Shown: positions 3,052 through 12,566 of the stretch, piece after piece | Position numbering within the stretch: the stretch's first letter is position 1 | Layout: the number at the start of each line of letters is the position of its first letter | Assembly (NCBI RefSeq): GCF_003287355.1 | Contig: NZ_QMIM01000027.1 | Coordinates: 1-45,319, forward strand | DNA: 45,319 nt | Source: Halorubrum sp. 48-1-W | Lineage (GTDB): Archaea > Halobacteriota > Halobacteria > Halobacteriales > Haloferacaceae | Direction of reading: 5' to 3' | Translations under genes and position numbers: made by a program | The notes under the pieces: generated by a model | Database searches by the model: none | The model's input: the letters and a program-made list of their open reading frames with translations, nothing else | Told to the model about the DNA's origin: nothing

Positions 3052-3555
3052 TCAGCAGTATTCGTCCGGAAGCACATCGGTGAAGAACCGATACCATACC
3101 TCGTACAGTTCGTCCTTTTCGTACAGTGTATCGAGACGAATCGGTGGGATCTCTCCTCGCACGTCGTGAGATTCGTCGCGAACACGCTCGATGCGTTCCG
3201 TCGGCCACGCTCCAGGATCGATCCCGTTGTCGCGGAGGAGTTTTCGGAGGAGAGCGATCGCGGTGCGGTGGTTGGCGTCCTCGAAGAAGTGTTTCCCGAC
3301 GACGGCATGCATCCAGAGTGCGCACTGCTCCGCGAGTGGTCGATCGGTCGGGAACTCGTCGAGGATTCTCCGGATGTCCCCGTTTCGAACACGCCATATC
3401 TCCCGGCGTTGCTCGAGGAACGACACGTCGCGTGGGTTGTCGTAGCGGTGCCGGTCGCTCTTCAAGAACTCAGTGTTTCGGAACTTGACGTTCTCCGGCT
3501 CGATCGACGACAGATCCGTGATTCGCGGTTCCGTTGGATCCGTCGACGAGCACAT
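3052..3555 (-). CDS. Fic/Doc family protein (Doc-like toxin)
   Basis: A 167-residue Fic-fold protein. The active loop reads GKHFFEDANHRTAI (about residues 87-100), which fits the Doc form HxFxDANxR more closely than the classical HPFxDGNGR of AMP-transferring Fic enzymes. In Doc this loop positions a nucleotide for phosphorylation of EF-Tu; in Fic proteins it usually AMPylates targets. Which applies here cannot be read from sequence. The ATG at 3555 gives a normal Doc length. No Phd-like antitoxin gene is visible directly upstream, and no inhibitory (S/T)xxxE(G/N) helix is obvious, so the antidote may be lost, distant or of another type. Confidence 0.82.
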   Translation of the reverse strand: MCSSTDPTEPRITDLSSIEPENVKFRNTEFLKSDRHRYDNPRDVSFLEQRREIWRVRNGDIRRILDEFPTDRPLAEQCALWMHAVVGKHFFEDANHRTAIALLRKLLRDNGIDPGAWPTERIERVRDESHDVRGEIPPIRLDTLYEKDELYEVWYRFFTDVLPDEYC

Positions 3556-3666
3556 CTCGTCCGTCGAGATTCGCTCGAGGGTGTTAATTCACCGTGGTTC
3601 TCGGAGTCTCACGACACGCGGGGTGGATGATCGACTGGAGACTCCGAAAGGGGTCAGATCGGCCCC

Positions 3667-3955
3667 GCTTTCTACGTTGTCGCGTCCCGTCTCGTTCGTC
3701 CCGGGAGCGTCGGCCTCGCGGGAGGGCGCACGGACGCGGGCGACGCCCTCCGCGAAGTCGATCTCGGGCTCCCGGCCGGTGGCCACCCGGAACGTGGAGG
3801 CGTCGGCCATGGTGTCGTGGGAGGGGCCGTCGACGGGGCACTCGAGGTAGGCGGGGTCGACCTCGGTGCCGAGCGCGTCGTCGACGCCGATGGGGCTCGT
3901 GGTCGACGGCGAGTTCGCGGGCGCGGGCGACGTTCTCGACGCGGGCCGTGGGCCG
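3667..3955 (-). pseudogene. NDP-sugar epimerase 3'-end remnant, copy C (longest)
   Basis: The longest of three related remnants. On the minus strand it opens VENVARARELAVDHEP, then after a frame change and an apparent internal deletion gives IGVDDALGTEVDPAYLECPV, followed by HDTMADASTFRVATGREPEI and DFAEGVARVRAP. These are consecutive landmarks of the last third of an NDP-sugar epimerase: the conserved helix that faces the substrate, then the C-terminal lobe. The first origin box lies 16 bases beyond it at 3971. It is clearly non-functional. Confidence 0.65.
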
Positions 3956-3970
3956 GGCCGGTGTATCACC

Positions 3971-3994
3971 GACACACCGCCGCTTCGCGTGAAA
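3971..3994 (+). repeat. Origin recognition box ORB1
   Basis: GACACACCGCCGCTTCGCGT followed by GAAA. One of seven copies of a 24-bp element with consensus (g)ACACACCACCryTTCrCGTGAA around the orc gene. Confidence 0.7.
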
Positions 3995-4038
3995 CCGATC
4001 GATCGCTGTCCGATATCGTGGGTTCGATCCCCGGGAGT

Positions 4039-4062
4039 CACACACCACCACTTCGCGTGAAG
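4039..4062 (+). repeat. Origin recognition box ORB2
   Basis: CACACACCACCACTTCGCGT followed by GAAG. Same orientation as ORB1, 68 bases further on. Confidence 0.78.
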
Positions 4063-4147
4063 CCGTTCGGCGGTCGGTCCTCGATGGGGTCGTTCACCGG
4101 ACTCGGGGATCGTCGGATTCCACGTTTCCGGGCGTTTTTCCGGCCGT

Positions 4148-4171
4148 CTTCACTCGAAGAAGTGGTGTGTT
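4148..4171 (-). repeat. Origin recognition box ORB3 (inverted)
   Basis: The plus strand reads CTTCACTCGAAGAAGTGGTG followed by TGTT, the reverse complement form of the box. Together with ORB2 it makes an inverted pair 85 bases apart. Confidence 0.78.
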
Positions 4172-4180
4172 CGGTCAGAT

Positions 4181-4220
4181 GGTGGGATGTTCGTTCGGGT
4201 GGCGGTATGTTCGTTCAGGT
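4181..4220 (+). repeat. Tandem 20-bp repeat beside the origin boxes
   Basis: Two adjacent 20-base units, GGTGGGATGTTCGTTCGGGT and GGCGGTATGTTCGTTCAGGT, identical at 17 of 20 positions. They lie between ORB3 and ORB4 and may be extra initiator sites or a remnant of local slippage. Confidence 0.5.
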
Positions 4221-4240
4221 GGGGGTGTGGCCACTCCCGA

Positions 4241-4264
4241 ATTCACTTGAAGTCGTGGTGTGTC
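4241..4264 (-). repeat. Origin recognition box ORB4 (inverted)
   Basis: The plus strand reads ATTCACTTGAAGTCGTGGTG followed by TGTC. It completes the downstream set of two forward and two inverted boxes. Confidence 0.78.
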
Positions 4265-4327
4265 TGTAGAACCGCAGTCGGGAGGACGCTTCGGTTCGGG
4301 CGTCGGAGCGTTCTCCACGTCGTCGGA

Positions 4328-4373
4328 TGGTCCTCAGGGCGTACTCGGTCGGGTGGTCCTCAGGGCGTACTCG
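4328..4373 (+). repeat. Direct 20-bp repeat after orc
   Basis: TGGTCCTCAGGGCGTACTCG occurs at 4328-4347 and again, perfectly, at 4354-4373 (period 26). It ends 18 bases before the orc stop codon. Iteron-like in form; role unknown. Confidence 0.55.
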
Positions 4374-4391
4374 TCGGACGGTCGACCGGGT

Positions 4392-5615
4392 TCAGATCCC
4401 GTTCATCGACGCGATCTCGCGGATCGCGTTCGTCTCGGCGTCGAGTCGGAGGACGTCTTCCATCGCCTCGATCGCGCTCTCGAAGGGGACGTCCAGCTCG
4501 TAGCTGTAGTAGTTCCCTCGCGAGCCGCTCCGGTTCTCCTCGGCGGAGAGGATGCCGAGCATCCGGAGGTCCGAGAGATGGCTGTGAACCGACCGCTGTG
4601 AGAGCGTGTCGATACCCGACGAGTCACAGAGCGTGGCGTACTCCTCGTATAGTTTCCGCGTGCGACACGGCGTCTCCCGTTTAGCGGCCTTCGAGACGAC
4701 CGCGAGGAGCGCGAGCCGACCGTGGGTGGTCAGGTCCCGCATCCCCTCCTGGACCCGTTCCTGTTCGAGACGGGAGCGAGCCCGTTCGACGTGTCCCTGT
4801 TCGATCCGGTCGTGGTCGCCGTTCTCCGCGATCTCCCCGGCGAGCCGGAGGAGATCGAGCGCCTGTCGGGCGCTCCCGCTGTCGCGGGCCGCGAGCGCGG
4901 AACAGAACTCCAGAACGCCCGAACCGACCGCGTCGTCGACGATCGCGACGTCGGCGCGGGACCGGAGGATGTTCTCGAGTTCGGGCGCGTCGTACGGCGG
5001 GAACTGGAGTTCCCGCTCACAGAGCGTGTCCTGGACGCGGGGGTCCAACTGCTCGCGAAACGTGAAGTCGTTGCTGATCCCGATGAGCCCCACGGCGGCG
5101 TCCTCGAGGTTCCCGTTCGCCCGCGCCCGCGGGAGTTCGTACAACAACTCGTCGCGGTCGCCGATCGAGTCGATCTCGTCCAAGACGATCAGGACCGTCC
5201 CGCCGAGGGATTCGAGTTCCCGGTAGAGCTTGTTGAACACCGTCTGCTGTGGGTATCCCGTCGAGCTGATCTCCTCGCCGACCGGGCGGAGCTCGTTCAC
5301 GAGTTCGACGGCCACCTGGTACGAGGAGTTCAGCGTCTTACAGTTCAACGAGACGACGGAGAGGTCCACGTCGTCGTACGCCTCGACGTCCTGTTGAAGT
5401 CGTCCGAGGAGGTAGTCGGTGACCGCCGTCTTTCCGACGCCGGTGTTCCCGTAGAGGAAGACGTTGTTCGGCTCCCAGCCGTCGACGACCGGCTGAAGCG
5501 CCTCGATGTACTCCTCGATCTCCTCGTCGCGCTCCTCGATCGTCTCCGGCCGGTAGGACTCCCCCAGCGCGTCCTTGTTTCGGAAGACGTTCCCCTTCCG
5601 TTCGAACCGATGCAT
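4392..5615 (-). CDS. orc: Orc1/Cdc6 replication initiator
   Basis: A 407-residue archaeal Orc1/Cdc6. AAA+ features in order: Walker A GNTGVGKT (about 56-63), Walker B LIVLDEID (about 142-149), sensor 1 region GLIGISNDF, sensor 2 region DSGSARQALDLLR, and a C-terminal winged helix (about 310-390) that binds origin boxes. Length is normal for the family. The ATG at 5615 is chosen over a GTG at 5624 because a TATA box sits 23-30 bases before it. The gene is flanked on both sides by copies of a 24-bp box in inverted arrangement, so it most likely opens its own origin. A near-identical internal fragment is repeated at the window start. Confidence 0.95.
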   Translation of the reverse strand: MHRFERKGNVFRNKDALGESYRPETIEERDEEIEEYIEALQPVVDGWEPNNVFLYGNTGVGKTAVTDYLLGRLQQDVEAYDDVDLSVVSLNCKTLNSSYQVAVELVNELRPVGEEISSTGYPQQTVFNKLYRELESLGGTVLIVLDEIDSIGDRDELLYELPRARANGNLEDAAVGLIGISNDFTFREQLDPRVQDTLCERELQFPPYDAPELENILRSRADVAIVDDAVGSGVLEFCSALAARDSGSARQALDLLRLAGEIAENGDHDRIEQGHVERARSRLEQERVQEGMRDLTTHGRLALLAVVSKAAKRETPCRTRKLYEEYATLCDSSGIDTLSQRSVHSHLSDLRMLGILSAEENRSGSRGNYYSYELDVPFESAIEAMEDVLRLDAETNAIREIASMNGI

Positions 5616-5637
5616 ACCGCACACTCCAGCAGGTCAA

Positions 5638-5645
5638 TTTATAAA
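5638..5645 (-). promoter_or_regulatory. TATA box of orc and AT-rich segment
   Basis: TTTATAAA, palindromic, lies 23-30 bases before the orc ATG, the spacing expected for a leaderless haloarchaeal transcript. The surrounding 5636-5675 stretch is the most AT-rich part of the origin region and could double as the duplex-unwinding element next to ORB5. Confidence 0.65.
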
Positions 5646-5680
5646 ACTACCTCTTCAATTGATTCAAGTGAAGGGGTATA

Positions 5681-5704
5681 GACACACCACCGTTTCACGT
5701 GAAC
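5681..5704 (+). repeat. Origin recognition box ORB5
   Basis: GACACACCACCGTTTCACGT followed by GAAC. The best match to the consensus. Adjacent to the AT-rich stretch upstream of orc. Confidence 0.82.
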
Positions 5705-5823
5705 GTGTCGTGTCGCGTTCCCGATCGCGGCAGTATCGTCATCGTGATCGCGCACACGACGATGGCTCTCCCTCGGGCTCCGTAGTGATGGTCACTGGAT
5801 CGGATCGGTAGTCTCCGCCCGGG

Positions 5824-5847
5824 GACACACCACCGTTTCGCGTGAAC
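5824..5847 (+). repeat. Origin recognition box ORB6
   Basis: GACACACCACCGTTTCGCGT followed by GAAC. Same direction as ORB5, one base different. Confidence 0.82.
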
Positions 5848-5907
5848 AGGACGCGTTCGACAAAGCGATCGTCGAGACGCTCCTCCAGGTCCCCCCTCAT
5901 CGAAGAG

Positions 5908-5931
5908 CTTCACTCGAAATAGTGGTGTGTC
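5908..5931 (-). repeat. Origin recognition box ORB7 (inverted)
   Basis: The plus strand reads CTTCACTCGAAATAGTGGTG followed by TGTC, inverted relative to ORB5 and ORB6. It closes the upstream box set. Bases 5932-6087 beyond it hold no gene. Confidence 0.8.
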
Positions 5932-6087
5932 CGTGTCGTTCGAACATGGTTGGTCGCAGTACACGTCGTAGACGGAGCCGGCCTCCCCGCGAAGCCGTCC
6001 GGTCGGTGGTCGGACCGCACGCGGGCGGTGCGGATCGGGAGCGGTGAACCGGTACGTTTGTTTGCGGGCGTCGGGTACGGAGGCGTA

Positions 6088-7200
6088 ATGCGAATCCTCC
6101 GGGTCGCGCCGTGGCTCTACCCCGACACGAAGGGCGGCGGGGACTACCACGTCCACGCGATGTCGCGAGACCAGGCCGCGATGGGTCACGACGTGACCGT
6201 GCTCACGACGCGGGCGGACGAGTCGCTGCCGCGGATCGAGGAGACGCACGGGTACACCGTGCTCCGGGTGTCGCCGGGCGTGACCCTGCTCGGGAACGAC
6301 GTCTCGCCCGCGGTGGCGCGGTACCTCTGGCACGCGGACGGCGACGACTTCGACGTGATCCACGCGCACTCGCACTGCTACTTCGTGACGAACCTCACAG
6401 CGCTGAAAGCCCGGCTCGGCGACCTGCCGCTGGCGATCACCAATCACGGGCTGTACAGCCAGAACGCGCCGGAGCGGCTCTTTTCGGTGTACCTGCGGAC
6501 GCTCGGGCGGTGGACGTTCGACCAGGCGGACGTGGTGTTCTGTTACACCGAGGTGGACAGAGAGCGCGTGCGGGATCTGGGTGTGAGTTCGCGGATCGAG
6601 GTCGTGCCCAACGGGATCGACACGGAGCGGTTCACGCCGGAGGGGGCCGAAAGCGAGCTGATCGACGCCGAGGGGCCGGTCGTGTTGTTCGTCGGGCGGT
6701 TCGCGGAGGGGAAGCGGCCGTGGCTCGCGGTCGAGGCGTTCGCGGAGGTGCTGGCGGCGTACCCGGACGCGGAGCTGTACCTGTGTGGCGACGGGGCGTT
6801 ACGCGGAGACCTGGAGGCGCAGGTGGCGGAGCTGGGGATCGGGGAGGCGGTGACGTTCCTCGGGCACGTGCCCTACGACGAGATGCCGAAGGTGTACCGG
6901 AGCGGGGACGTGTTGGTACTGCCGAGTCGGGCGGAGGGGGTGCCGCGGACGGTGTTGGAGGCGATGGCGAGCGGGCTGGAGATCGTGATGAGCGACCTGG
7001 ATCAGGTGTCGTCGACGCTCGGGGATCGGGGTCACGTCGTCGCCGACGGGGGAGATGAGTCGCTCGCGGACGGCCTGTTCGCAGCGATCGGCGGTTCGGG
7101 TGAAACGTCCGAGCAGATCGCGGCGGGCGATCATCGGTGGACGGACACGGTCGAGCGCACGACTCGGAGCCTCGAGTCGATCGCCGAGAACAACCCATAA
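6088..7200 (+). CDS. Family 4 glycosyltransferase
   Basis: A 370-residue GT-B fold enzyme that transfers a sugar from an NDP-sugar to a growing glycan, probably lipid-linked at the inner face of the membrane. N-terminal half: LRVAPWLYPDTKGGGDYHV (glycine-rich acceptor loop) and FDVIHAHSHCYF. C-terminal half: VVPNGIDTERF, FVGRFAEGKRPW and the E-x7-E motif EGVPRTVLEAMASG (about 291-304). The ATG at 6088 follows a GGAGG at 6079-6083, a clear ribosome binding site. It is GC-rich, like the chromosome. It begins the glycan locus beside the origin. Donor and acceptor are unknown. Confidence 0.9.
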   Translation: MRILRVAPWLYPDTKGGGDYHVHAMSRDQAAMGHDVTVLTTRADESLPRIEETHGYTVLRVSPGVTLLGNDVSPAVARYLWHADGDDFDVIHAHSHCYFVTNLTALKARLGDLPLAITNHGLYSQNAPERLFSVYLRTLGRWTFDQADVVFCYTEVDRERVRDLGVSSRIEVVPNGIDTERFTPEGAESELIDAEGPVVLFVGRFAEGKRPWLAVEAFAEVLAAYPDAELYLCGDGALRGDLEAQVAELGIGEAVTFLGHVPYDEMPKVYRSGDVLVLPSRAEGVPRTVLEAMASGLEIVMSDLDQVSSTLGDRGHVVADGGDESLADGLFAAIGGSGETSEQIAAGDHRWTDTVERTTRSLESIAENNP

Positions 7201-7227
7201 GTAACCGCTCCCCCTCACGGCGAGTGT

Positions 7228-7521
7228 ATGGGGCCGAACCCGGTAGCGGTCATCAAGAACTCCCTCCTGTATCGCGTCTCGGCGCAGATCGTCGAGTGGG
7301 CCGAAGAGAGTCTGGTCGTGCGGGCGTTGAACCTATTGGCTCGGGTGCTGGATAACGAGCGCGTGCTGGTGGGACTTCTCGGTGTGGGGTTACTCGCCAG
7401 TATCGTTCGGATACTCTCCTCGGGCCTTCACGTGACGATTCAGTTCTTGAGTTTCGCGCTGTTGTTCGTCGTGCTCGCCGCGGTGACGTGGAACTACACC
7501 GAGCCACTCACGGACGAGTAG
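7228..7521 (+). CDS. Small membrane protein, unknown
   Basis: A 97-residue protein. Residues 45-65 (LVGLLGVGLLASIVRILSSG) and 70-90 (FLSFALLFVVLAAVTWNY) look like two membrane helices; the N-terminal 40 residues are amphipathic. It follows the glycosyltransferase by 27 bases and may be in its transcript. I recognise no domain. Its last 132 bases overlap, in antisense, the end of the convergent membrane-protein gene at 7390-8691. Confidence 0.65.
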   Translation: MGPNPVAVIKNSLLYRVSAQIVEWAEESLVVRALNLLARVLDNERVLVGLLGVGLLASIVRILSSGLHVTIQFLSFALLFVVLAAVTWNYTEPLTDE

Positions 7522-8691
7522 TTCCCAGCGTGCGATCACGGGTGCGGCAGTCATGATTAATATGAAATCGAAGACAATTCGATGGCGAACGCCGGTTCCG
7601 AAGTTGGAGTTGATCGCCCCGTATCCGGCAGTTCCAGCGAGATAGACGACGATGAGGAGAACAGCAGTAGTCCGATCGTAGTCACATTCATACAGTGACC
7701 GGAGAGCACTCACGAAGAGAATCATAGCGATGACGGTGCCACTGAACGTAAGCAAGTGAAAGATCGACTCGATGTGGAGCGGGAACGGAGTAAACTGGAA
7801 GTAGACCGCCCGCCCTGGTGCGATAAGGAGGAAGTCGAACCAGGAATTGTACTGCATTCCATCAAGGTATACAGCTCCACCAGATGCCCGATATGAGAGG
7901 GCAGCGTTCACTCGGTCAAACGAGTAGAGCAGTTCAGCAAATAGGCTGAATCCTATGGCACCGACAGCGCCCAGAACGACGATCAGTGATCGAAGGGACG
8001 GTTCCAGTTCGAACGTTTCTATGACCTTTATACTGATCGTCGCGAGAATGGCAAGGAGAGAAACGAGGGCAAGTTCTGGACGGACTAGATATAGCATTCC
8101 CCATAAGGGGACCGTGAGAATCCCGAGTGCCCCGTTGTTTCGTTGTATCGCTCGGAGAGCGAGGGCGAGAAGGCTAAAAAAGACGAACACTGACGTCGAA
8201 TCTCGCATCGGAAGACTCAGCATCAGAAACGGTAGCGGCAGAAACAATACCAACGCCGTCACTGTATCAAGACTCACGTGGTCGTACAGTTCCGTGGTAA
8301 TATATCGAATCGGGATCGGGACCAATACAGCGAGAAGCCCGGAAACGATCGCGATGTTCGTCTCATTGTGTCCGAATATCGCGTATACGACTCCCTGTAC
8401 CGCTGCGAAGGAGGCAACCGTGGATCCACTAGGAAGCGTCCCCGTGGCCACCTGTTGTGCCGCCCGATCGAATTGTCCAAAATCCCATACATACGGGATA
8501 TTCGGGACCACTCCGACGGAAACGACCACGTGACCCAGTAGTGCGATCAGACCGAGTTTCAGATACAGTTCGTCGCCGATCCGGCGAGCGATGTAAATGA
8601 ACGCGAGAAACGCGAACACGGTCACAGCGACGACCATTATAACCTTCAGTCCGATCGGACGAGTGAAAAAGGTAGCTTTCTCAATCGTCAA
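7390..8691 (-). CDS. Polytopic membrane protein (glycan polymerase or GT39-like)
   Basis: A 433-residue protein with about 11-12 predicted membrane helices, beginning near residues 16-35 (KVIMVVAVTVFAFLAFIYIA). A loop near residue 75 carries WDFGQFDRAAQQVATG, resembling the acidic acceptor loop of family 39 or oligosaccharyl-type membrane glycosyltransferases; LVRPELALVSLL is another recognisable piece. It could be a glycosyltransferase using lipid-linked sugar, or a repeat-unit polymerase. The start shown is TTG at 8691; an ATG at 8637 is an alternative that would remove most of the first helix's leader. The last 44 residues are hydrophilic and overlap the convergent small gene, so the true C-terminus may be shorter in relatives. 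Confidence 0.72.
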   Translation of the reverse strand: MTIEKATFFTRPIGLKVIMVVAVTVFAFLAFIYIARRIGDELYLKLGLIALLGHVVVSVGVVPNIPYVWDFGQFDRAAQQVATGTLPSGSTVASFAAVQGVVYAIFGHNETNIAIVSGLLAVLVPIPIRYITTELYDHVSLDTVTALVLFLPLPFLMLSLPMRDSTSVFVFFSLLALALRAIQRNNGALGILTVPLWGMLYLVRPELALVSLLAILATISIKVIETFELEPSLRSLIVVLGAVGAIGFSLFAELLYSFDRVNAALSYRASGGAVYLDGMQYNSWFDFLLIAPGRAVYFQFTPFPLHIESIFHLLTFSGTVIAMILFVSALRSLYECDYDRTTAVLLIVVYLAGTAGYGAINSNFGTGVRHRIVFDFILIMTAAPVIARWELLVREWLGVVPRHRGEHDEQQRETQELNRHVKARGEYPNDTGE

Positions 8692-8770
8692 TCAGTGTAC
8701 TCACCCAAATCAACCACCGATCTGCTCGGATACACAATCATAATAAGTGGTACGACTCAAAGACGAGTAG

Positions 8771-10186
8771 ATGTCGGTCCAGAACAGCACGTTCTTGCGG
8801 AAGGTCTACAACTCGTCTCCGCCTCCCTTACAGTCGGTCGCCATCTCCGTACTTGGGTTGAACATTAGACGGAACCGATACAGTGACCGGTTTCATGAGT
8901 ATACGGAGAAGTATCGCCGACACCAGTGGAACGGCGCGGAGTACTGGCAACAGTATCAACTGGAGAAACTCACGGAGATCGCGAAGTACGCCAAGCGAAC
9001 TACCGATCATTATCATGATATAGAGATCGAACCGATTCAGTCGGCAGAGACGCCGAGGGAAGCCCTCAAACACCTCCCGTACTTGGAGGGCGAGACGCTT
9101 CGAGACGAACCGAACTCTCTCATATCGAGTGAAGTCGACACGGACAACTGTATCTCCTTGAGTACGAGTGGAACGACGGGGACTCCGAAAACGACATATC
9201 ACGACGATCTCTCCCATATCAAGTACTGGTCCGCGATGAATCGATTCTGGCACTGGGGCGGTTGCCGGTACGGAGATCGGCGGGCGTCCTTTACCGGAAA
9301 CAAGATCGTCCCCGCCGATCAGTCGGGCGGTCCGTACGGTCGATACGACCGAGCGAACAATCGGCTCCTACTGTCCAGCTACCATCTCGGTGAGGAAACC
9401 GTCGACGCGTATCTCGACGAGCTCGAGGAGTTCGAACCTGACTTCATTGACGGGTATCCCTCGTCGATCCGGTTCTGTGCCCAGCGGGCGATCGAGACCG
9501 ATCGCGATCTCGCGATCCCCGCCTGTTTCCCGACGGCCGAAATGCTTCGTGAGGAGGACAGAGAGATCATCGAGGAGGGGCTCTCGACCAACGTCTACAA
9601 TCAGTACGGTTCTACTGAGAGCGCAGCTATCGTGACAGAATGTCCGAGCGGGCACATGCACGTCAACCCCGAGATCGGGATCATCGAAGTCCTCGACGAG
9701 AACGGTGAAACTGTCTCAGAGGGTGAAGTCGGTGAGATCGTCATGACCGCGTTGAACAACCGTGCGATGCCCCTGATCCGGTATCGGATCGGAGATATGG
9801 CGCGTGGGCCGCCGACGTATGGGAAGTGTGACTGTGGAAGAGAGATGCCGATCATCGAGAAGATCATCGGCCGGCAGGACGAGGTCGTTGTTACGAAAGA
9901 CGGGCGACGGGTTCCAATGTTGAGCTATAACGTGTTCAAGTACACAGAGAACGTCAGCGAATCGCGGATCGTTCAAGAGTCCGTCGACGAATTCCTGTTA
10001 CAGATCGTTCCGGATGATGGATACACGGACGAGCAAGCGGAGATCGCTATCAAGAAACTCAAAGATCGTGTCGGTGAAGATATTCACGTCGAGATCGAAA
10101 CACTTGAATCGATCCCACGGACGGACGCCGGGAAGTTCAGAGCCGTTATTAGTGACGTTGAAAACCTTTCAGAGGTGCCACAATGA
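8771..10186 (+). CDS. CapK/PaaK-like adenylate-forming enzyme
   Basis: A 471-residue member of the phenylacetate-CoA ligase/CapK group. ATP-binding P-loop STSGTTGTPK (about 131-140), YNQYGSTES (about 276-284) and RYRIGDMA (about 336-343) are present, with a C-terminal lobe containing PRTDAGKFR (catalytic lysine region). KCDCGREMP is the usual cysteine-containing insert. Such proteins activate a carboxylic acid as an acyl-AMP; CapK versions occur in capsule and exopolysaccharide loci and are thought to help add an acyl or amino-acyl group to a sugar. The gene overlaps the next glycosyltransferase by four bases (ATGA), so the two products probably act together. Substrate unknown. Confidence 0.88.
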   Translation: MSVQNSTFLRKVYNSSPPPLQSVAISVLGLNIRRNRYSDRFHEYTEKYRRHQWNGAEYWQQYQLEKLTEIAKYAKRTTDHYHDIEIEPIQSAETPREALKHLPYLEGETLRDEPNSLISSEVDTDNCISLSTSGTTGTPKTTYHDDLSHIKYWSAMNRFWHWGGCRYGDRRASFTGNKIVPADQSGGPYGRYDRANNRLLLSSYHLGEETVDAYLDELEEFEPDFIDGYPSSIRFCAQRAIETDRDLAIPACFPTAEMLREEDREIIEEGLSTNVYNQYGSTESAAIVTECPSGHMHVNPEIGIIEVLDENGETVSEGEVGEIVMTALNNRAMPLIRYRIGDMARGPPTYGKCDCGREMPIIEKIIGRQDEVVVTKDGRRVPMLSYNVFKYTENVSESRIVQESVDEFLLQIVPDDGYTDEQAEIAIKKLKDRVGEDIHVEIETLESIPRTDAGKFRAVISDVENLSEVPQ

Positions 10187-11256
10187 ACAACATATCAGCA
10201 TTGTTTTTGACAAAATATGATCAGAAAGGAGCCAGTAGTCGTTATCGAGCTCTCAAATACTTCCCGATTTTAGAAGAGAATGGGATTAAATGTTCATATC
10301 GACCATTATTCACGGATGAATATTTAGTAGAATTGTTTGAAGAAGGATATCGAAGTAAGAAACGTGTGATTTCGTCGTATCTACGTCGTTTTAAACATAT
10401 GATTGGATTGAGATCGTATGATATCCTTATTCTCGAAAATGAATTTTTTCCATATTTACCGAGTGTCTTCGAAAAACTGCTTGGATATATTGACATACCA
10501 TATATTGTTGACATTGATGATGCAATATTCCATAAATACGATCATTCTGATAATATTTTTATTAGATCTATTTTAGGGCAAAAAATTGATGTCGTAATGC
10601 GGAATTCAGAGATGGTCATTGCAGGTAACGAATACCTCGCTTCAAGGGCTCGTCAAGCAGGCGCACCATCAACTGAGATCATTCCAACTGTCATTGACTT
10701 GAATCAATATCCTGCTGAACCTCCAGAGCAGAATGAGGATACATTTGTGATTGGCTGGATCGGTTCGCCTTCGACATCACATTATGTCGAAGAAATAAGC
10801 GATGTGCTACGTCAAGTCGCTGATCGGCGTCAAATTGAAGTCCGACTGATTGGCTCAGGCGATGTTTCATTACCTGACGTTCCACATGAAGTGCGAGAGT
10901 GGTCCGAGGAGAGTGAGATTGATGATTTACGAGATATTGATGTCGGGATCATGCCGCTTGATGATACTCCTTGGACCCGAGGAAAGTGCGGATTTAAATT
11001 AATTCAATATATGGGTACATGGAAACCTGTAGTTGCATCACCAGTTGGTATAAATCGAGATCTCGTGGATAATGGTGTGAATGGATATCTTGCCAACTCA
11101 AAAGCCAAATGGGTAAATTCGCTACTTGATATTTGTGATAACCCGGAGAAACGAAACACAATGGGTGTAAATGGCCGCAATATTGTTGAAAATAAATATT
11201 GTTTCCGTGTTACCGGCCCAAAAATTGTGGATGTAATTAAAAACAGTATTGAGTAG
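10183..11256 (+). CDS. Glycosyltransferase, family 4-like, AT-rich
   Basis: A 357-residue GT-B glycosyltransferase. The C-terminal lobe shows FVIGWIGSPSTSHY, VGIMPLDDTPWTRGKCGFKL and YMGTWKPVVASPVG, the nucleotide-sugar binding part of this subgroup, which lacks a classical E-x7-E. The N-terminal part includes SRYRALKYFPILEENGI and DIDDAIFH. It starts inside the end of the CapK-like gene (ATGA overlap). Codon use changes at once to AT-rich (many AAT, ATT, AAA codons), unlike the gene before it, so this gene was probably acquired from a different source although it is translationally coupled to its neighbour. Confidence 0.88.
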   Translation: MNNISALFLTKYDQKGASSRYRALKYFPILEENGIKCSYRPLFTDEYLVELFEEGYRSKKRVISSYLRRFKHMIGLRSYDILILENEFFPYLPSVFEKLLGYIDIPYIVDIDDAIFHKYDHSDNIFIRSILGQKIDVVMRNSEMVIAGNEYLASRARQAGAPSTEIIPTVIDLNQYPAEPPEQNEDTFVIGWIGSPSTSHYVEEISDVLRQVADRRQIEVRLIGSGDVSLPDVPHEVREWSEESEIDDLRDIDVGIMPLDDTPWTRGKCGFKLIQYMGTWKPVVASPVGINRDLVDNGVNGYLANSKAKWVNSLLDICDNPEKRNTMGVNGRNIVENKYCFRVTGPKIVDVIKNSIE

Positions 11257-11279
11257 AACCTCGATCTATAACAAATTAA

Positions 11280-12566
11280 TTAATATAATTTAGCATAACT
11301 GTTTGCTATGATCGTAGTATCAAAGTTTTCTTTCGCGAATTGTCTACAATCCTCAGATATTTCCTCGCTATTGGAAATAATATCGTGAATTCGTTCTGAA
11401 TCGTCTTTTGATAGGGATTCAGGAGGACAGTACGAATTATTTTTGTTGAAATGGAGTGATATTTCACAGCCAAGATTATTCTTGCGTATGATCTCTGCGG
11501 CACCCTCTACATTCTGATTTACGATTGTAGGGAGACCCGCTGAACAATATTCGACGAATTTTGTTCCAATTCTTATAGATTCGTTATCTAAGATATATAA
11601 TCCCAGATCCGCTTGAGACAGTAGCGTAGGGACCTGCTCAAAATTAGGATTCTCAATTATGTAATGTTCATCATTAATATTGTACTCATGAAATTTTTTT
11701 CGCAATAATTCGTTTGAATCAGGAGGTATCAGGAACATAAATTGTAGATTACGATTTAGTTCCAACAGTTTTTCTATTACACAGCCATATTCATCAGGGT
11801 TATTCCACAAACTCTCATACATGGAGCCAGAATAACAAACGAGAGTTGTAGACTCATCGATGTCATGCTTTTCTCTAATCGACTCATCTCTAACTTGATC
11901 CGGAGAAAATTCATTAGTATTTACATTATTTGGGATTATTTTTGTTTTGACACCAGAGTATATCTTCTTAAAATGTTGATCGTAGGTATTTGAGATCGCT
12001 ATAACATAATCTGAGTGGATACACAACTGTCTTTCCAATTTTTTCCACATCTTATAACTCAGTGACCTCTTGGACCAATTCCGGCGTGTTATATTCTCCT
12101 CTGGAAAATCAGATCGTGGATCGAATATTAGTCTGATATCTTTAGAGATACATTTTATCGCTAGCACGGATACCGATATAGGATAAGAACGACAGTGAAA
12201 TATATTAATTCCTGAAATGAATTTCAGATATAATACGAATGGGGTAGAATACAACAGCACAACTAACATCCGTATCCAATCATACCTCCACCTGTTTATC
12301 CACCCCCTATCACGGGTATATATTGGAATGGGAAACGGTGTTGGAATAGTTATAAATCGTATACCCTCTTTCTGTAACTCCTTATTTAGGTCAGAAATAT
12401 TGCTCCGATTACGCAAATATTCATAGAATGGGAGAAATGACACAAGAATCAGATCTTTATTTGTTAATTTATTAGATTCAGATATAACTTCAATTACCTG
12501 TCTTCTTAATAGATTTGACCAAGGCTTCTCATTGAATGTTAGATACCCAATTTTGCTCGATCCCAT
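11280..12566 (-). CDS. Glycosyltransferase, family 4-like, AT-rich
   Basis: A 428-residue GT-B enzyme. The C-terminal lobe contains KIIPNNVNTNEFSPD, LVCYSGSMYESLWNNPDE, QADLGLYILDN and GTKFVEYCSAGLPTIV, typical of sugar-nucleotide binding. The N-terminal lobe has NIFHCRSYPISV and LIFDPRSDFPEE. Transcribed against its neighbours, it converges with the previous glycosyltransferase with a 23-base gap. Strongly AT-rich and rich in Asn, Ile and Lys, like 10183-11256, so both probably arrived in one block. Donor sugar unknown. Confidence 0.87.
   Translation of the reverse strand: MGSSKIGYLTFNEKPWSNLLRRQVIEVISESNKLTNKDLILVSFLPFYEYLRNRSNISDLNKELQKEGIRFITIPTPFPIPIYTRDRGWINRWRYDWIRMLVVLLYSTPFVLYLKFISGINIFHCRSYPISVSVLAIKCISKDIRLIFDPRSDFPEENITRRNWSKRSLSYKMWKKLERQLCIHSDYVIAISNTYDQHFKKIYSGVKTKIIPNNVNTNEFSPDQVRDESIREKHDIDESTTLVCYSGSMYESLWNNPDEYGCVIEKLLELNRNLQFMFLIPPDSNELLRKKFHEYNINDEHYIIENPNFEQVPTLLSQADLGLYILDNESIRIGTKFVEYCSAGLPTIVNQNVEGAAEIIRKNNLGCEISLHFNKNNSYCPPESLSKDDSERIHDIISNSEEISEDCRQFAKENFDTTIIANSYAKLY

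Follow-up and report, generated by a model that had tools for sequence, protein, structure and literature searches.

The initiator gene orc in the window (the whole 45,319-nt stretch of Halorubrum sp. 48-1-W DNA analysed here) is flanked on both sides by inverted sets of a repeated box, which raises the question of whether the two sets mark two firing sites or one origin accompanied by a control element. An earlier note, made from the sequence alone, had put forward both readings. We favour the second and estimate a probability of about 0.65 that the locus combines an upstream origin, a downstream array that holds Orc and an orc promoter that is repressed by its own product.

Boxes, orc gene and base composition of the window

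The orc product is an intact protein of 407 amino acids, and its translation contains the Walker A motif GNTGVGKT and a C-terminal winged helix. It matches the Pfam profiles Cdc6_C and Cdc6_lid (3.6e-23 each) and TIGR02928 (455 bits, cut-off 181), and thus has the AAA+ domain, the lid and the C-terminal winged helix of an Orc1/Cdc6 protein. Searches of phage records returned only distant matches to this Orc. At the very start of the contig (1-126, minus strand) lies a second copy, a 42-residue piece corresponding to residues 195-236 that is 90% identical to Orc, 5'-truncated and running off the contig start. The features of the locus are as follows:

3972-3993, plus strand: ORB (box) of the downstream set, exact pattern match
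4040-4061, plus strand: ORB of the downstream set, exact pattern match
4149-4170, minus strand: ORB of the downstream set, exact pattern match
4162-4241, no strand assigned: G-rich box end repeated in degenerate form at 20-bp spacing (GTGGTGTGT, GTGGGATGT, GCGGTATGT, GGGGTGTGG)
4242-4263, minus strand: ORB of the downstream set, exact pattern match
4320-4383, no strand assigned: 26-bp tandem repeat of 2.5 copies, unlike the box
4392-5615, minus strand: orc1/cdc6 initiator gene, from profile matches and translation, with the start codon placed by conservation
5625-5681, no strand assigned: AT-rich stretch (37% GC), orc promoter and candidate unwinding element
5640-5672, minus strand: stretched ORB abutting the orc TATA box (TTCACTTGAATCAATTGAAGAGGTAGTTTTATA), proposed autoregulatory operator, in 58/58 family members
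5682-5703, plus strand: ORB of the upstream set, closest to orc, exact pattern match
5825-5846, plus strand: ORB of the upstream set, exact pattern match
5909-5930, minus strand: ORB of the upstream set, inverted partner, exact pattern match

Seven boxes fit ACACACC[AG]C-NNN-TTC-NN-GTGAA exactly, with 0 expected in shuffles. When the whole 3.58-Mb assembly was scanned with the pattern of the earlier note at up to three mismatches, seven of the nine matches fell inside the 2-kb orc stretch, and the reversed control pattern gave no match in the same scan. All seven boxes are therefore present around orc where they had been placed, far beyond chance. The 24-bp box as first described needs correction, however, since the conserved core measures 22 bp and its middle is variable: the inverted copies carry TTC, GAC or TAT where Cry had been written. 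The two arrays of 20-bp repeats also stand only in part, the period being 20 bp at 4168-4222 but 26 bp at 4320-4383. The former array prolongs the G-rich end of the box at 4149-4170 in 20-bp steps, and the degenerate repeats at 4162-4241 are found in the window only and are absent from its closest relative. With inverted ORBs in the space between genes next to orc, the locus has the arrangement of an orc/cdc6-associated haloarchaeal origin. The box sequence, sought as text in published papers, was not found there.

The earlier proposal of an orc-specific box class is borne out, as the box accompanies this Orc family across the order, and elsewhere in the genome no orc gene has an array of it, except for a similar class at one paralogue. 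This paralogue, 40% identical to the window Orc and located in the C21:33314 region (L014), is preceded by boxes of a class very close to that of the window (ACACNCCACNNNTTCAAGTGTT), and crosstalk between the two proteins is therefore possible. One full box was also observed at C21:37909-37930 (L013 1257-1278), where it follows, at a distance of about 0.25 kb, another orc gene that has its own distinct boxes; this lone copy may be a relic or may allow cross-talk.

An AT-rich stretch adjoins the upstream set, as the earlier note had reported. It is situated not within the inverted set but on its orc side, in the gap that separates the closest box from the start of the gene, and it coincides with the promoter of orc. 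It forms part of the least stable 80-mer in 3500-6500, the minimum being at 5624-5704. The candidate unwinding element is thus beside the boxes of the window, not between them. The spaces between inverted boxes are 61-67% GC in the window, the downstream set included, and on the downstream side the lowest GC of any 60 bp is 52%. Most relatives have, between their inverted upstream boxes, a space that is richer in AT than the locus (often 40-55% GC); the window (63%) and its nearest relative, L061 (72%), do not. Because of this GC-rich space, the origin of the window could be weak or dormant, which counts against the origin reading. The support from GC skew is likewise weak: the skew maximum lies 7 kb from orc, inside an AT-rich island, in a 320-kb piece of the nearest-relative genome G278, and no maximum was seen at orc on the Haloplanus plasmid, so GC skew was rejected as proof of firing.

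Side observations concern the neighbouring genes. A Fic/Doc-like protein, scoring below the curated cut-off, is encoded at 3052-3555 on the minus strand and adjoins the downstream box set. Several glycosyltransferase genes and an AMP-ligase-like gene lie beside the origin at 5950-12566, with a sulfatase beyond them, and the region resembles a surface-polysaccharide island.

Conservation and distribution of the two-sided layout

We compared 58 loci, comprising the window, 56 genome loci and Halobellus clavatus. A convergent box pair upstream of orc is present in 58/58. Downstream of the gene, at least one box was found in 42/58 loci, at least two in 36/58 and a convergent arrangement in 31/58, with 0.1 downstream boxes expected in shuffled sequence. 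No box lies inside orc in the 58 loci, and the 16 loci that lack downstream boxes include all 8 Haloferax loci examined. The same box recurs in all 58 loci (consensus over 348 family boxes, ACACACCACTGTTGCAAGTGAA), and the boxes have been kept as the flanks diverged. In a common layout, a + box at about -267 and a - box at about -66 are followed by a + box 7 bp past the last codon and by - boxes at +56, +93 and +115. The distance from the closest upstream box to the orc start, about 62-67 bp, is near-fixed in most relatives.

Two-sided sets had been thought unusual. With downstream boxes in 42 of the 58 loci, the layout is conserved rather than odd, and Wu et al. (2012, PMC3528665) had already recorded ORBs on both flanks of at least ten orc genes of haloarchaea. 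Of 21 further orc loci in which a box was clear, a set picked by a repeat-count threshold in which some members are related or look oriC1-type, 18 have at least two downstream copies. The two-sided ORB layout is ordinary for haloarchaea. In the tree, the layout with two boxes upstream and four downstream falls in one clade of 38 that contains the window, and the six-plus-none layout lies mostly outside it, the totals being near 6-7 in either case. An odd-looking locus thus becomes a conserved design, in which one Orc clade has two boxes at the origin and about four behind the gene, and other Orc clades have all of their approximately six boxes in front of it. A trade-off between upstream and downstream counts was considered and rejected: the raw correlation (rho -0.73) comes from few clades and fails the independent-pairs test, and we make no claim of it because only about one independent change lies behind it.

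At an identity of at least 69%, the Orc was found in 65 of the 392 genomes of the order, below which there is a gap down to 60%. The family occurs on plasmids of Haloplanus aerogenes, Natrinema pellirubrum, Halorientalis marina, Halalkalicoccus jeotgali, Haloarcula marismortui (pNG500) and others, and elsewhere on chromosome-sized contigs. Full orthologues in the same genus number three among the matches listed, including the window genome, and the nearest relative, G278, has no neighbouring sequence in common with the window directly beyond orc and its promoter. This patchiness, the plasmid locations and the lack of common neighbours imply that the orc module is mobile or often lost. The 41-kb Haloplanus aerogenes plasmid with orc was considered as a natural one-initiator replicon, a case weakened by a second replication-like gene; at L140 32623-33570 it carries a gene whose product has the helicase-binding domain known from NrS-1-type polymerases.

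Comparison with known origins and alternative readings

The partner of Haloferax volcanii orc2 is oriC3, which is active as an origin (PMC7776575; PMC6063281). An orthologue of the window Orc occurs in all 15 Haloferax genomes, and the published H. volcanii orc2 deletion primers (PMC6063281) match the flanks of these orthologues in consistent places with 2-5 mismatches; control primers for other orc genes gave no match there. The window Orc is therefore the counterpart of Haloferax Orc2, the initiator of oriC3, and the tree puts the two in a single clade. The oriC3-orc2 locus (HVO_0634) resembles the window in its orthologous Orc (about 77% identity in Haloferax), the same box, the convergent upstream boxes and the same promoter element, but has 4-6 boxes upstream and none downstream, against three and four in the window. 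In the grouping of Wu et al. (2012, PMC3528665), Hvo_orc2 belongs to the oriCa family, which is also represented in Har. marismortui, Hac. jeotgali and Hrr. lacusprofundi. Relatives of the window Orc were found on replicons of the first two and probably in the third, at 77-81% identity to the named members, a range that straddles the 80% grouping line of that paper. The oriCa list also includes Halobacterium orc10; in a family that is probably Halobacteriaceae nothing exceeded the cut-off, which is uninformative either way. The ORB sequence is common to the window and the family, and the locus is probably an oriCa/oriC3-type origin module with a downstream ORB array, a kind already known.

For the working of such an array, the closest precedent is oriC2 of Haloarcula hispanica. 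Its downstream cluster, oriC2D, has no ARS activity and is not deletable alone. It depresses the copy number of an oriC2 plasmid, two boxes doing so to an intermediate degree, and restrains the upstream origin, probably by titrating the initiator (PMC3936714). Our comparison recovered oriC2-cdc6E (G131) with convergent upstream boxes and exactly 11 downstream boxes (ACACACCACCCTGCAAGTGTT), equal to the published count. It has in common with the window an upstream convergent pair, a downstream ORB cluster, an extra box in the promoter and a very similar box of the same polarity. However, the oriC2 box is one base shorter and ends in GTGTT rather than GTGAA, and the 11 boxes of oriC2D all point one way whereas the four in the window are convergent, as in 31 of the 58 loci, which speaks against an oriC2D-like brake. 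The window Orc was rejected as a Cdc6E orthologue at 42% identity, and the comparison is accordingly one of working, not of membership. A more distant parallel, drawn for the initiator sink in the same paper (PMC3936714), is Escherichia coli datA with dnaA autoregulation, in which there is likewise an initiator sink and boxes in the initiator's promoter; the proteins and sequences are unrelated and the likeness is in working only.

These comparisons bear on how the downstream set should be read. A second origin fired by the same Orc would fit the convergent boxes on both sides in the window and in 31/58 relatives. However, the downstream side of the window has no AT-rich stretch, Haloferax oriC3 fires with no downstream boxes at any of the 8 loci, and the equivalent Har. 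hispanica region shows no ARS activity on its own. Two firing sites, one of the two options in the earlier note, are thus very unlikely and were rejected, since the downstream side is GC-rich and dispensable in Haloferax; the universal upstream pair and the oriC2D precedent likewise favour its other option. Still less credible is a function outside replication, with the boxes serving as transcription terminators or regulatory sites. In some relatives a hairpin could arise from convergent boxes just past the stop codon (27 nt spacing), but this distance is not constant (87 nt in the window), every member also has the same box upstream, and the box is of the class of the proven oriC2 ORB.

Harder to set aside, though doubtful, is that Orc bound at the two arrays brings them together over the gene and so handcuffs or assembles the origin, which would make the downstream set part of one folded origin and no sink. 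The downstream convergence kept in 31/58 loci, which a simple sink does not need, and the steady box totals would suit such looping; the anticorrelation of counts discussed above fails to lend it independent cases. It is also possible, if on the unlikely side, that the module arrived with mobile DNA and is a dormant or decaying origin that no longer fires here. Dormant haloarchaeal origins are known (PMC4595724), and the patchy occurrence in the genus, the location in low-GC islands and plasmids, the lack of neighbours common with G278, the GC-rich inter-box space and the truncated orc copy at the contig start all point that way; against it, Orc is intact, and the boxes and the promoter element are conserved in sequence. 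We therefore retain one origin with a control element as the preferred reading. Orc from the window gene would bind its own 22-bp boxes, the upstream convergent boxes and the adjoining AT-rich stretch would serve as the replication origin, and the downstream boxes would hold Orc and lower initiation at the upstream site, like oriC2D. In this way the one tested archaeal initiator sink, that of Har. hispanica oriC2, is extended by comparison to a second Orc family.

A stretched box in the orc promoter

An eighth, stretched box at 5640-5672 in the orc promoter had been overlooked in the earlier note. Its family form, TTCACTTGAATCAGATGAAAAGGTGGTTTTATA, lies against the orc TATA box in every one of the 58 members and has 13 matches elsewhere in 600 kb strand-bases; this conserved position is new here. 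At this site Orc could repress its own gene, and the arrangement suggests, on sequence grounds, that Orc controls its own production. Sulfolobus Orc1-2, a related protein that regulates transcription, indicates that the fold is capable of regulation (PMC9738581), and in the open-access papers searched we found no description of autoregulation through a promoter box in haloarchaea.

Analogous promoter elements, made from the respective box, precede cdc6E and several other orc genes. In a test that derived the box from the flanks and left the promoter out, a significant copy was found in the promoter segment of 15 of the 21 clear-box orc loci mentioned above (about 1 expected), although the independent cases are fewer than 15 given the threshold choice, the kinship and oriC1-type look of some members, and the copies at the far segment end that may be ordinary boxes. 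We tentatively propose, at somewhat less than even odds, that haloarchaeal initiators generally repress themselves through their own, often stretched, box at the TATA box, that this operator tracks the origin box across Orc families, and that operator and downstream array form one homeostatic circuit. If true, such a circuit would set both the initiator level and origin firing. The promoter element is precise and easily mutated, and is the part of the locus most worth following, as it lets one test whether archaeal initiators set their own supply, as DnaA does. In one subgroup (L109-L114), the promoters contain three half-boxes in steps of about 10 bp, one per helical turn.
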